Assembly: GCA_007121535.1 (NCBI GenBank)
Contig: SKKK01000289.1
Coordinates: forward strand, 1-42,477
Direction: 5' to 3'
Source: Planctomycetaceae bacterium
GTDB taxonomy: Bacteria > Planctomycetota > Planctomycetia > Pirellulales > Pirellulaceae
Length of the DNA stretch: 42,477 bases
Below, piece after piece: positions 31,047-35,043 of the stretch. Position numbers and translations under genes: made by a program. The notes under the pieces are model-generated. The model was not told the DNA's origin and made no database searches. It saw only the letters and a program-made list of their open reading frames with translations. The first letter of the stretch is position 1. Each line of letters opens with the position of its first letter.

Positions 31047-32182
31047 TGCTGGCGATGGATGATCGTCGCCGTATCGCGCTGGTGATCACGGAACTCGAGC
31101 CCGGCGGCGCCGAACGCTGCCTGGTTCATCTGGCAACCGGCTTGCCCACAGAACGCTTCATAACCGCCGTCTACTGCCTGGCTGCTCGCCCCGCCCGCGA
31201 TCGGGACTGCCTGGTCCGTCGCCTGGAACGACAGGCCATTCCCACGCATTTTCTCGGCGCTCGCACGATCTGGCAGGCGCCAAGCACCCTCAGACGTCTC
31301 GGTCGCGCGCTGCGCGACTTCGATCCGGACATCGTCCAGTCGTTTCTGTTTCATGCCAATGTGCTGAGTGCCTTGGCTGTGGGGGGGCGGAAACGTCCCG
31401 CATTGTTCACGGGCATCCGAGTCGCCGATCCGTCACGCTGGCGTCAGCGCGTCGAAGCCTGGACCAGTCGCCGCGCCCGGCAGGTCGTCTGCGTCAGCCG
31501 CGACGTCGCCGATTTCTGCCGAGCACACACCGCCTTTCCATCCGACAAGTTGTGCGTGATTCCCAACGGGATCGATCCTGCGAGCTACCAGCACCCCGCC
31601 CAGCAATCGGCTAGGCAACTCGGATTGCCCGAGGACCGCCGCATCCTGCTGTACGTCGGTCGACTGCACCGCCAGAAAGCTGTCGACTGGCTGCTGGATC
31701 AAGCGCCACGCTTCCTTGCGACCTTACCCCAACACGATCTGGTCCTGGTTGGCGACGGTCCCGAACGACGGGCCTTGCAGCAGCAAGCCGAGCGTCTGGG
31801 GATCGCTCACCGAGTCCATTTCCTCGGTTACCGAGACGATATCCCCGACCTGCTAGCCGTTGCCGACCTATTGATCCTACCATCGCAATGGGAAGGCATG
31901 CCCAACGTCGTGCTCGAAGCCATGGCCAGCCGTTTACCCGTGGTCGCCACCCGAGCCGCCGGGGTACTCGAATTGCTCGGCCCGCTGGCCGACCAGCAAA
32001 CCGTCCAGCACGGCGACGGTCACGCCTTGGTCGAAGCCATAATCCGCGTCGTCCAACACCCCGAAGTAGCTCGACAATGGGGCCAAGCAAACCACGAGCG
32101 AGTCCTCCAACACTTCCACCTACGACAACTGATCGAAAACTACACCCACCTATACCACCAAGCCACCGTCCAACCCCCGTAG
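31046..32182 (+). CDS. Glycosyltransferase family 4 (GT-B fold)
   Basis: About 378 residues. The N-terminal acceptor domain opens with ALVITELEPGGAERCLVHLATGL. The C-terminal donor domain has LLYVGRLHRQKAVDWLL, LVLVGDGPERRAL and the EX7E motif in EGMPNVVLEAMAS (from residue 283). It transfers a nucleotide-activated sugar to a glycan or lipid; donor and acceptor are unknown. ATG 31046 overlaps the UspA stop as TGATG; GTG 31043 and ATG 31055 are alternatives. The last codons and the stop lie within the first 40-bp direct repeat. It may be transcribed with the ATPase operon, though its function is not obviously linked. Confidence 0.88.
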   Translation: MLAMDDRRRIALVITELEPGGAERCLVHLATGLPTERFITAVYCLAARPARDRDCLVRRLERQAIPTHFLGARTIWQAPSTLRRLGRALRDFDPDIVQSFLFHANVLSALAVGGRKRPALFTGIRVADPSRWRQRVEAWTSRRARQVVCVSRDVADFCRAHTAFPSDKLCVIPNGIDPASYQHPAQQSARQLGLPEDRRILLYVGRLHRQKAVDWLLDQAPRFLATLPQHDLVLVGDGPERRALQQQAERLGIAHRVHFLGYRDDIPDLLAVADLLILPSQWEGMPNVVLEAMASRLPVVATRAAGVLELLGPLADQQTVQHGDGHALVEAIIRVVQHPEVARQWGQANHERVLQHFHLRQLIENYTHLYHQATVQPP

Positions 32183-32243
32183 CCGGATTTGCCAAAATCC
32201 CGGCACCGTCCAACCCCCGTAGCAGGACTTACCAAAATCCCGG
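32164..32243. repeat. Two 40-bp direct repeats with hairpin, overlapping a gene end and touching the IS66 end
   Basis: Copies at 32164-32203 and 32204-32243 differ at three positions. Each contains CCAACCCCCGTAGC and a hairpin (GCCGGATTT, loop, AAATCCCGGC with one bulged base). The stop codon of the glycosyltransferase is inside copy 1. The left inverted repeat of the IS66 element starts two bases after copy 2. It may act as terminator; it may be REP-like. Confidence 0.8.
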
Positions 32244-32420
32244 CGTAAACATTCGCTGAACCCGCCGATTTGGCATGGGCAAGGTGGACAGTCAACGAAG
32301 TGGGAGGGGTGGCGGGTGCAGGTTGCACGGGCGGCTGGCATCGTAGACTGCGGCGACAGGTGGAAAGAAATTTGGTAAACCCGTCTGGACACGAGGAATT
32401 GGTTGTGGTAGATAGAGGGC

Positions 32421-33000
32421 GTGTCAACAGGCACCGCGCTCCTATCGACCCGGCAATCCACGACGGAAGAAATGCGGCAGGATGCTGCGCAGCTGTGGCT
32501 CGAATTGCTGGAAATGCGGCAACAGGCCGGTTATTGGAAGGCCCAATTCGGGCGCAGCAAGGAGCGGGAAGCCAAGCTCCAACGGAGAATCGAGGAGCTG
32601 GAGGCGAGGGTCAAACAACTGGAACACCAACTGTTCGGCAAGAAGTCGGAGAAAAAGAAGCGTTCCGAGTCATCTTCGGCCTTCGGCGGCGGGAAACGGC
32701 CTCGCGGCCAGCAAGTGCGGCAATCCCGGGCCCAAGCGGAAAAACCACGAGCATCTGCCACAAGTCGAAGAATCCCGAGATCTGCCCGAGGATCAAAAGC
32801 GTTGCCCCCAGTGCGGGCTGCCTTACCTGGACTTTCCGGGTACGGAGGACTCCGAAACGATCGAGGTCGAAGTCCGAGCCCATCGGCGTGTGATCCGCCT
32901 TAAGCGATACCGGCCGGGCTGCTGTTGTCCCGGCAACTCGGGCATCATCACCGCGCCCCCGGCACCTAAACTCATCCCCAAGGGACGGTCCGGATGCCAA
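32421..33000 (+). pseudogene. IS66 transposase, N-terminal part, frameshifted and truncated
   Basis: The first frame (32421 to about 32740) encodes the IS66 leucine-zipper-like coiled coil (REAKLQRRIEELEARVKQLE, HQLFGKKSEKKKR). After a frameshift near 32740 the reading continues in the next frame with HEHLPQVEESRDLPEDQKRC, the zinc-finger CPQCGLPYL, and VRAHRRVIRLKRYRPGCCCPG to APPAPKLIPKG. There homology stops at about 32985. The part of the DDE domain with the first catalytic aspartate (usually in an HxDET motif, roughly 130 residues) is missing. Confidence 0.85.
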
Positions 33001-33007
33001 AGGGATC

Positions 33008-34366
33008 TTGAACGTCGACCGGGCGAGCAACTACAAAGCCCTGATGGCGGTCAAGCAGGGAACCTTGCTGTTGGCCTTCTGCTGGACTCACACCCGGCGG
33101 GATTTCCTCGACGCCGCCCGCGGCGACCCGGAACAACAGCAGTGGGCCGAGTCGTGGCTGACGCGGATCGGCGAGCTGTTCCATCAGAACAAGTTGCGCG
33201 TGGCCGCCTGGAAACAAGACCCTCAGGGCCCGGAGTTCGCCCAGCACGACGCGGTGTTGCGGGCTCGCCTGGAAGACTTCCGAGCCGCCCGCGACGAACA
33301 ATTGCAACAGCAGCCGCCCGCGTCGATCCGCCAAAGGATTCTCAGCAGTCTGGTCAGACACTGGGAGGGGCTGCTGGTCTTCGTGGAGCATCCGGAAGTA
33401 CCGATGGACAACAGCGAAGCCGAACGTCGCTTGCGTGGCCCCGCGATGGGTCGGAAGAACTATTGGGGTTCCGGCGCGACGTGGGCCGGGGAGTTGGCCG
33501 AGCGTTGTTTTTCGCTGTTTGCCACATTGCTGCTGGCCGGCTTGAATGTCCGCACTTGGCTGACGGCTTATCTGACCGCTTGTGCCGAGGCGGGTGGTCG
33601 TGCCCCGGCCTGGGCGGCCCAACTGCTGCCCTGGAACTTGAGCCCCTGCCAACAGCAAGTCTTTCAGTTGCCGCTGGAAGGTCAGGGGTTGCCCGGCGAG
33701 GTGCGAAATTGCTTGGATGCACTGGCCGCCGCGGCCCAGCCGCCGCAGGAATTCAGCTTGCCACAGTTGGGTGATCTGCGATTGGAATTGGTCACCCGCC
33801 GCCGGTCGGCGTTATGGAACGAGTACATCGACCGTTATCACTACTTGGGCTACACGCCGCTGGTGGGCGCCCAGTTGCGATACTGGGTGTATGCCGAAGA
33901 CCGGCTGCTGGCCTTGTTCGGCTATGGCGCCAGTGCTTGGCGTCTGGCGCCGCGCGACCGCTGGATCGGCTGGAACGATGCCCAGCGGCAAGCCGGCTTG
34001 CCGCACGTCGTGGGGCAAGTCCGTTTTTTGATTCTGCCCTGGATCCGTTGTCCGCATCTGGCTTCCAAATTGTTGTCGTTGTCGGCCGCCCGGCTGCCCG
34101 CCGACTGGGAACAGCGCTACGGAATTCGTCCTTGGCTGTTGGAAAGTTTTGTGGATCGCAGCCGCTTTGAGGGCACCTGCTACCGGGCCGCCAATTGGAT
34201 CGATGTCGGACAAACCCAAGGCCGCGGCAAAAAGGACCGTCGTGGCCGCCCCGGCTTGCCCCGGAAGCAAATCTACCTGTATCCTCTCTGCCGGAATTGC
34301 CGAAGGCGGTTGACCAGCGACAGCACCGCCCAGCAGGACTTGCCGGGATCCCGGGTGGAAGGTTGA
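33008..34366 (+). CDS. IS66 transposase C-terminal part fused to a DUF4338 (DruA-like) domain
   Basis: 452 codons in one open frame. Residues 1-210 are the C-terminal IS66 DDE region: NVDRASNYKAL keeps the second aspartate, AFCWTHTRRDFLDAA, and PMDNSEAERRLRGPAMGRKN keeps the catalytic glutamate. After the usual IS66 ending LLPWNLS the frame continues into a DUF4338 domain (about 255-440): RYHYLGYTPLVGAQLRYWVY, AWRLAPRDRWIGWN, VRFLILPWIRCPHLASKLLS, RFEGTCYRAANWIDVGQTQG and KQIYLYPLC. DUF4338 is the domain of DruA from the Druantia phage defence system. The start codon shown (TTG) is only the first in frame after the deletion, so the protein is probably not made normally. The DUF4338 part shows no disruption. 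Confidence 0.85.
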   Translation: MNVDRASNYKALMAVKQGTLLLAFCWTHTRRDFLDAARGDPEQQQWAESWLTRIGELFHQNKLRVAAWKQDPQGPEFAQHDAVLRARLEDFRAARDEQLQQQPPASIRQRILSSLVRHWEGLLVFVEHPEVPMDNSEAERRLRGPAMGRKNYWGSGATWAGELAERCFSLFATLLLAGLNVRTWLTAYLTACAEAGGRAPAWAAQLLPWNLSPCQQQVFQLPLEGQGLPGEVRNCLDALAAAAQPPQEFSLPQLGDLRLELVTRRRSALWNEYIDRYHYLGYTPLVGAQLRYWVYAEDRLLALFGYGASAWRLAPRDRWIGWNDAQRQAGLPHVVGQVRFLILPWIRCPHLASKLLSLSAARLPADWEQRYGIRPWLLESFVDRSRFEGTCYRAANWIDVGQTQGRGKKDRRGRPGLPRKQIYLYPLCRNCRRRLTSDSTAQQDLPGSRVEG

Positions 34367-34964
34367 AAGGCTCTTGGGCAGACCATCCGCCTGAGCGGCT
34401 GGCGAACGGTTCTACCCTTTGCCGATGGCGGTTCGCCGTTGCCGCAGCCAGTTGCCGCTGGGCCGCGGCCAGTTGCCGCTGGGCCGCGGCCCAGCAAGAC
34501 TGCTACTGGCGGCAGGCCGTGCTCCGCGATCGGTGCTCCGCTCTCGCCGCCGATCTGCCCCAGGTGCTGACCTGTGTTGCCTTCCGGTCGACGTTACGGT
34601 TGGTCGCCGGGTGGCCGGTCCCGGCATGGTCCGATGTTGGCCTGCCGGTGCGATTGGCCCCGGCTGGTGTTGGTTCTCGGTCGCTCCGAAGCGTGTTGTC
34701 GATCTCGGTACTGGCTTCGCGGGCAGCGGGGCGTGCCGTTTGCACCAGCTTCGTGCTCGCCGTTGGCCTTCGAAAGCCCGGCCTGCTGTTGCTCGCCGGA
34801 GGACGGCGGACTTTGCGGAAGTGCCGCTGACGGGCAAAACACGCCGGACGTCCGAGCCTCCTATCCCCCGCCGCCGTTGTCCGCAATGCCAGGCACCCTC
34901 GCAGGCGGAGTCCGCCCCCACCCACCACTTCACCGGCCGTCCAACCCGCCGGTTCTCTTCTGGA
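34367..34964. other. GC-rich non-coding tail of the IS66 element with a 21-bp duplication
   Basis: About 600 bases between the transposase stop and the right inverted repeat. Several frames are open on both strands, as expected from the high GC, but none gives a recognisable protein. A 21-bp unit (AGTTGCCGCTGGGCCGCGGC plus one base) is directly repeated at 34450-34470 and 34471-34491. Confidence 0.55.
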
Positions 34965-35043
34965 GCGGGTTCAGCGAATGTTTACGATCGGCGAAGCACT
35001 GACTAGCCCCACTACTCTTGGTTGGTTACCGAGAGTCGTGGGC

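Follow-up and report, generated by a model that had tools for sequence, protein, structure and literature searches.

An IS66-family element with a DruA (DUF4338) domain in a planctomycete contig, and the similarity of transposon DruA proteins to the Mom protein of phage Mu

Structure of the IS66-family element

The window, a stretch of 42,477 nt from contig SKKK01000289.1 of a Planctomycetaceae bacterium, contains an IS66-family element flanked by a glycosyltransferase gene and a phosphofructokinase gene, both assigned with Pfam. The features of the element, in positions of the window, are as follows.

32245..34985, + strand: whole IS66-family element, 2,741 bp, with perfect inverted ends
32244..32265, + strand: left terminal inverted repeat CGTAAACATTCGCTGAACCCGC, 100% complementary to the right arm
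32532..32744, + strand: tnpC remnant 1, N-terminal leucine-zipper part (profile 39-118, local IS66 profile)
32710..32988, + strand: tnpC remnant 2, middle part, in another frame (profile 107-199, local IS66 profile)
32987..33643, + strand: tnpC remnant 3, C-terminal half of the DDE domain (profile 323-532, Pfam DDE_Tnp_IS66)
33764..34312, + strand: DruA/DUF4338 domain with a predicted Mom-like GNAT fold, in frame with tnpC remnant 3
34064..34066, + strand: codon for the invariant Ser of HLAS, whose counterpart in the alignment with Mom is the Ser that inactive Mom has mutated
34367..34964, no strand given: gap from the DruA stop to the right end, 598 bp, no recognised domain
34965..34986, - strand: right terminal inverted repeat, 22 nt, 100% complementary to the left arm

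The ends are of the GTAA type and resemble those of related elements, the left one being of the same kind as the ends of intact IS66-DruA elements, for example GTAAACATTCGGTGAACCCGTA in L148. When the 9.3-Mb assembly was searched with the 20-nt end pattern, allowing up to three mismatches, only two places were found, both belonging to this element. The 8-bp target duplication that is a feature of intact IS66 relatives is absent at the window copy (left flank ATCCCGGC, right flank GATCGGCG). A 40-bp direct repeat (93% identical, 32164-32243) abuts the left end, following the glycosyltransferase gene. Two overlapping ORFs in the 598-bp gap gave no Pfam match, and the gap gave no blastn match at E≤1e-4 among the fetched loci; short tandem 21-nt repeats and a GC-rich palindrome were observed within it at 34441-34495.

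The initial annotation had described an IS66 transposase fused in frame to a DUF4338 domain at 33008-34366, and this was borne out. The ORF encodes 452 aa in a single open frame, in which Pfam identified DDE_Tnp_IS66 at residues 3-162 (E 1.8e-23, 83.8 bits against a cut-off of 23.1), followed in the C-terminal part by a significant match to DruA/PF14236 at residues 251-411 (E 3.4e-41, 141.8 bits against a cut-off of 27). The ORF is real, but its TTG at 33008 is not a true start, the frame entering from a deletion junction near 32988, and the element itself extends from 32245 to 34985. The full-length IS66 model of NCBIfam matched the ORF with 125.4 bits, under its cut-off of 180, as expected since the ORF is a transposase fragment. 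Further upstream, LZ_Tnp_IS66 was identified by Pfam in ORF 32421-32903 (E 6.9e-5) and transpos_IS66 by NCBIfam in ORF 32482-33774 (E 2.7e-6, 26.7 bits, also under the family cut-off of 180).

The upstream transposase is broken, as first proposed, and with the local IS66 profile the remains of tnpC were resolved into three pieces, each in a different frame. The junction lacks profile positions 200-322 and with them the first catalytic Asp (profile 269), and the second Asp and the Glu motif are retained. The window transposase is dead, being frameshifted and without the stretch that holds the first catalytic Asp. The spacing between the IS66 and DruA profile matches is 120 nt in the window, compared with 294 and 312 nt in two uninterrupted fusions found elsewhere, and the region of ~100 residues that precedes the DruA core in relatives is missing. 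Because this helical region is missing and the linker is short, the exact in-frame junction may have arisen by deletion, as a secondary product. Judged by its transposase and ends, the window holds a decayed descendant of an IS66 element and not a working member, and with a dead transposase and no helical domain this copy probably does nothing on its own. The evidence suggests that it is a lead to the IS66-DruA group rather than a working example of it.

Pairing of IS66 tnpC with DruA in other bacteria

A scan of 84,980 species genomes yielded 589 confirmed relatives of the window DruA, of which the best 80 were taken; these loci hold the DruA proteins nearest to that of the window and are not a random sample of all DruA. 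Neighbouring transposase genes were counted with local profiles up to a limit of 1.7 kb. An IS66 tnpC was observed upstream on the same strand in 52 of the best 80 loci and downstream in nine, a Tn5-type transposase upstream in seven and downstream in one, and none of these transposases in 11. When the 16 copies from a single Accumulibacter assembly are entered as two, the same classes comprise 38, 9, 7, 1, and 11 of 66 loci. Of the 11 loci with none of these transposases, four start no more than 700 nt from a contig end (L086, L142, L146, and L162), and three have another transposase-like ORF (L092, L093, and L147). Ten proteins were submitted to Pfam, which confirmed IS66 in eight (L102, L129, L110, L112, L149, L088, L109, and L160); for L163 and L135 the submitted ORF held DruA only, and the IS66 match lay in another frame. 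According to the record titles, the tnpC-first hosts belong to Pseudomonadota, Thermodesulfobacteriota, Bacillota, Acidobacteriota, Planctomycetota, Verrucomicrobiota, and Spirochaetota, though many of these genomes are metagenome bins, where individual contigs may have been assigned wrongly. The window shows the arrangement of this group, with tnpC followed by DruA on the same strand inside one pair of ends, and it almost certainly belongs to a widespread group of IS66 elements that pair tnpC with DruA, usually as the second cistron and sometimes as a fusion.

Two of the 52 tnpC-first loci are single-ORF fusions, L102 from a Pirellulales MAG (827 aa) and L129 from a Spirochaeta MAG (829 aa), so that IS66-DUF4338 fusions also exist outside the window, alongside the 50 further loci of the best 80 with tnpC just upstream. 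In both, an uninterrupted frame runs from IS66 through the DruA N-terminal region to the DruA core, and the inverted ends match at 17 and 19 of 22 nt, respectively; no target duplication was found at the ends of either. Of the 50 pairs that are not fused, 43 have a possible DruA start that gives an overlap of exactly 4 nt with the tnpC stop (29 of 36 when the Accumulibacter copies are reduced to two), the start codons having been read mechanically for this count. A gene overlap of 4 nt is a recognised sign of translational coupling. The order DruA-before-tnpC is exemplified by L070. At L070:327-4147 we observed an IS66-type element with imperfect 31-nt ends, in which a small ORF and TnpB lie on one strand and tnpC and DruA, overlapping by 4 nt, on the other.

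A phage origin of DruA was rejected, as no tblastn match was obtained in 50,697 phage records with the window DruA at E≤1e-5 or with the L010 DruA at E≤1. Among the 5,000 plasmid records counted, none covered 80% of the query in one place, the matches listed being nearly all to IS66, so no plasmid-borne fusion came up in this set.

Mobility, phylogeny, and selection

In Accumulibacter ACC003, 16 copies (two subtypes, of 12 and 4) carry both genes inside IS66-type ends; they have common ends GTAAGTATTCGGTGAACCCGTA and a length of 2,716 or 2,728 bp, and a perfect 8-bp target duplication was identified at 15 of the 16, the exception being L118. Both ends and a target duplication were also found in eight further loci (L090, L094, L112, L137, L140, L148, L156, and L160), among which L137 and L148 have an identical duplication sequence and may represent one insertion. 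The tnpC-then-DruA elements with target duplications measure 2.6-2.8 kb (L112: 3.3 kb). IS66 tnpC and DruA are both enclosed by the transposon ends and transpose as one unit. A compact and apparently recently mobile test case is offered by the Accumulibacter element (L110 family).

In a quick tnpC tree, 34 of 38 tnpC-first rows fell in one branch (support 97), which also holds the window and 17 rows labelled as DruA-less, one of them being the window's own duplicate L080. The DruA-before-tnpC rows fell mostly elsewhere in the tree, 11 of 13 in a single branch (support 100) together with one IS66 without DruA. Tree tests, from which the long-branch or outlying rows L016, L021, L095, L104, L132, L135, and L163 and the duplicate L080 were left out, did not reject a single clade of DruA-bearing elements (p-AU 0.733). 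Placement of the window tnpC with the DruA-bearing elements (p 0.456) and with the DruA-less ones (p 0.827) both fit, and the window DruA was either retained or captured in a planctomycete-type IS66 element that has since degraded.

Selection was assessed on 14 locus pairs chosen by relatedness, covering both gene orders and not all independent. The dN/dS of DruA was 0.07-0.22 in these pairs; in each of the 13 pairs with both values defined it was below the tnpC value, in one by a hair. Several dS values exceed 1 and are approximate. DruA is under strong purifying selection and, since its dN/dS is low and below that of tnpC, is kept at least as strictly as the transposase.

IS66 relatives without DruA and DruA genes in the phylum

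A search of 397 genomes of the same class for the nearest IS66 transposases gave proteins 46-52% identical to that of the window over the part in common. Ten of these loci have both ends (such as GTAAGCATTCGGTAAACCC), are 1.84-1.93 kb long and carry tnpC; the window DruA gave no tblastn match in them at E≤1e-3. Such tnpC-only elements have in common with the window DDE_Tnp_IS66 and ends beginning with GTAA, whereas the window has a DruA domain between tnpC and the right end and is a dead copy. With similar ends and no DruA, they indicate that DruA is dispensable for IS66 transposition in general, and that the ends and transposase of the window are of the local IS66 type, to which DruA is an extra.

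In a phylum-wide draw, DruA was found in 42 of 392 genomes, that of the window included; one genome (G217) holds five DruA matches. Besides that of the window, 29 loci (L002-L030) were fetched with flanks of up to 1.5 kb and inspected with local profiles. Of the 29, six have DruA with IS66, ten with Tn5-type transposases (L013 and L028 being weak cases), two with a DDE_5 transposase, and 11 with none of these; the last count includes L005, in which the local DruA profile found no match. By PADLOC score, three of these 11 loci (L002, L003, and L004) are of the Druantia type, and another, L010, has a DDE_Tnp_1 ORF upstream. Those DruA proteins that are fused or linked to other transposases (Tn5-type IS4, ISAs1, and DDE_5) are like the window in having the DruA core beside or inside a transposase gene, but they differ in the transposase family and often have DruA first. 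Local profiles placed DruA in frame and N-terminal to a Tn5-type IS4 transposase in L011, L014, L018, L019, L020, L024, and L030, the L011 fusion being confirmed by Pfam. On a Thiodictyon plasmid, DruA is fused to an ISAs1-type transposase (L083:3908-5242).

The DruA domain and its similarity to Mom

Of 36 columns that do not vary among 43 other DruA proteins (window excluded), the window DruA retains 34, the two lost columns being an adjacent Asn-Asn pair; in the smaller alignment A1 it retains 15 of 15. The domain had been called undisrupted, which is correct for the core, open and well conserved, but not for the N-terminal three-helix region before it, which is absent from the window and whose helices are present in the L110 model. 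AlphaFold modelled the window domain with a mean pLDDT of 81.3 (core mostly above 90) and the full Accumulibacter DruA (L110) with 89.5.

Profile comparison matched DruA to nine phage Mom proteins at 97.2% (E 4.3e-11, 167 columns), and a larger DruA alignment gave 96.1% (E 3.1e-9). As controls, 15 generic GNATs of the same genome matched DruA at 0.3 and 0.6%, reversed Mom at 0.4%, and IS66 and Tn5 at 0.1% each; Mom did not match the 15 generic GNATs either (0.2%). The aligned identity between DruA and Mom is only 18%. Pfam Mom matched 23 of 42 DruA proteins at E≤0.05 (best 8.9e-6), and besides DruA and Mom these 42 proteins gave one weak match to one other Pfam family. The window protein itself had no match to Pfam Mom (PF25680) at E≤0.01, and the scores printed for three relatives (18.2, 19.5, and 22.2 bits) are all under the curated cut-off of 27.1. 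Against the sequences of solved structures, the DruA profile gave chance-level matches only (best E 0.18).

The predicted fold points to the same protein. With the window model as query, Foldseek ranked Mom of phage Mu (PDB 8bv8) first among solved structures (E 1.9e-7), and Mom was rank 1 of 999 aligned chains with Z 14.7 over 170 residues (rmsd 3.8 Å), the next entry having 12.6. For the Accumulibacter DruA model the values were Z 14.9 over 166 residues (3.4 Å) and 12.9 for the next entry, the match spanning 101-281 and barely covering the N-terminal three-helix domain. Since Z values of 11.5-12.9 are reached on these two models by many ordinary GNATs, the substrate is not fixed by the fold alone. 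Among predicted viral structures, a named Mom ranked fourth (E 1.7e-7), after two uncharacterised proteins and a NAT-domain protein. At the residue level, inactive Mom, as deposited in the PDB, carries a change from Mu Mom at the second Ser of NSES, the position to which two alignments assign the invariant Ser of LAS in DruA (HLAS in the window copy). The invariant His-Tyr of Mom and its closing F.[DE]..G..Y.A.N....G-like stretch have the same form in DruA.

By profile and modelled fold, the closest characterised relative that we found for the transposon DruA is the DNA-adenine-modifying enzyme Mom of phage Mu. Best fold match, significant profile match, His-Tyr, closing motif, and Ser are common to both proteins; on the other hand, Mom sits in a phage and DruA in an insertion sequence, DruA relatives carry the extra N-terminal helical domain, the identity and the Pfam Mom scores are low as given above, and the activity of DruA is a prediction only. 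Mom protects phage Mu DNA. The molecule name given to Mom in the PDB is "Methylcarbamoylase mom", Mom-family GNATs are presented as acyl modifiers of adenine N6 in a passage of PMC7824862, and DUF4338 is termed a GNAT domain in a passage of PMC10853773. Among the matches listed for open-licence PubMed Central, no report pairing IS66 with DruA or DruA with Mom was found, which does not prove absence; PMC12458937 contains none of DruA, DUF4338, Mom, or GNAT as whole words.

Comparison with Druantia

A link of the domain to DruA of the Druantia defence system had also been proposed. It holds at the level of the Pfam family, PF14236, which the window domain has in common with Druantia type I DruA and which is entered, as DruA/DUF4338, as a protein of unknown function in the Druantia gene table of PMC7251935. 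The relationship is distant, however: PADLOC gave 17.7 bits over 46 residues for the window domain and 18.2 bits for L110, with no match for L102 and L070, as against 587.2 and 595.8 bits for the full-length Druantia-type L003 and L004 and 295.7 for the shorter L002. Membership of the window DruA in Druantia was rejected on these scores. Seven ORFs of the window were scanned for a druB-druE context, and the genes flanking the element are those for the glycosyltransferase and the phosphofructokinase.

Profiles of Druantia-type and transposon DruA align at 94%. The Druantia-type profile, built from four sequences only, gave no match to Mom (0.7%), and the Druantia-type proteins have LGGK where the transposon branch has LASK. 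As far as tested, the Mom-like features thus appear to belong to the transposon branch of DruA, and as Druantia-type DruA lacks a Mom match, the comparison with Mom is not extended to Druantia.

Possible role of DruA in the transposon

The initial suggestion that the domain may be a nucleic-acid-acting module tied to mobile elements is supported by the relationship to Mom together with the pairing with transposons. Considering homology and modelled fold together, we lean toward DruA being a nucleic-acid acyltransferase, acyl-CoA-dependent and base-modifying, and the explanation that we favour, by a modest preference, is that these are IS66 transposons with a Mom-like DNA-modifying partner, the chemistry of which we infer. 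TnpC and DruA would be produced together, by co-translation or fusion, and the N-terminal three-helix domain or the fused transposase would bring DruA to the DNA of the element, where it might modify bases at the ends, in the excised intermediate, or in the target. The simplest benefit would be shielding of the transposing DNA from host nucleases, as Mom does for Mu. That IS66-DruA elements carry their own writer of a hypermodified base, a Mom-like domain marking the element or its intermediate and shielding it from restriction, is put forward as a tentative proposal, and that DruA protects the transposing element from host nucleases is, by analogy with Mu, conceivable and somewhat doubtful.

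To our knowledge, dedicated DNA base modification has so far been associated with phages. If the proposal is true, a dedicated base-modification enzyme would be present in simple insertion sequences, some of the simplest mobile elements having a DNA-marking enzyme of their own, tied to the transposase by overlap or fusion, and the view of the interplay between host restriction and transposition would change. Placing the transposon DruA next to Mom gives a concrete and assayable prediction, namely acyl-CoA-dependent base modification.

Several other roles were weighed. DruA could be a transposition accessory that replaces TnpA/TnpB, the helical domain binding the ends and the GNAT acting as a scaffold or acetylating TnpC. 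The compact tnpC-then-DruA elements leave little room beyond two genes, the 4-nt overlap is tight and fusions occur, and DruA has Tn5-type, ISAs1, DDE_5, and DDE_Tnp_1 transposases as partners too, all of which would suit an accessory; we nevertheless regard this as rather unlikely, as the related 1.84-1.93 kb IS66 elements with both ends have tnpC and no DruA, L070 has both DruA and TnpB and so argues against a simple TnpB replacement, and the conserved DruA residues include those common to Mom. A role as cargo, protecting host or element from phages or competing elements in the manner of Druantia or other GNAT defence proteins, is less probable again: the regular overlap or fusion with the transposase is not expected of cargo genes, neither flanking gene is a Druantia partner, and the PADLOC scores (about 18 bits or none) are far from those of Druantia, even though the profiles of the two branches align and a GNAT DUF4338 domain is, in a passage of PMC10853773, described as fused to some DndF proteins. 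Acylation of a protein or tRNA, for example by a GNAT-type toxin stabilising the element, would agree with the GNAT fold and with general GNATs coming next after Mom in the fold search, and we consider it quite improbable because the profiles match Mom and not the 15 generic GNATs of the same genome (0.3%), and because the mapped elements leave little room for a separate antitoxin gene. That the window junction is a chance decay product joining IS66 debris to a DruA gene would fit the broken transposase, the missing helical region, and the lack of DruA in the nearest tnpC relatives of the class, but is highly improbable and was rejected, since a single perfect pair of ends encloses both parts, the gene order is that of 52 of the best 80 DruA loci, and two uninterrupted fusions exist elsewhere (L102 and L129); the in-frame point itself is possibly secondary.

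A different gene pair was observed at L072:3252-5736, where the ORF that comes after a DruA-like ORF, and overlaps it, matches an ORC-CDC6-like ATPase; this is perhaps a conflict system of another kind.
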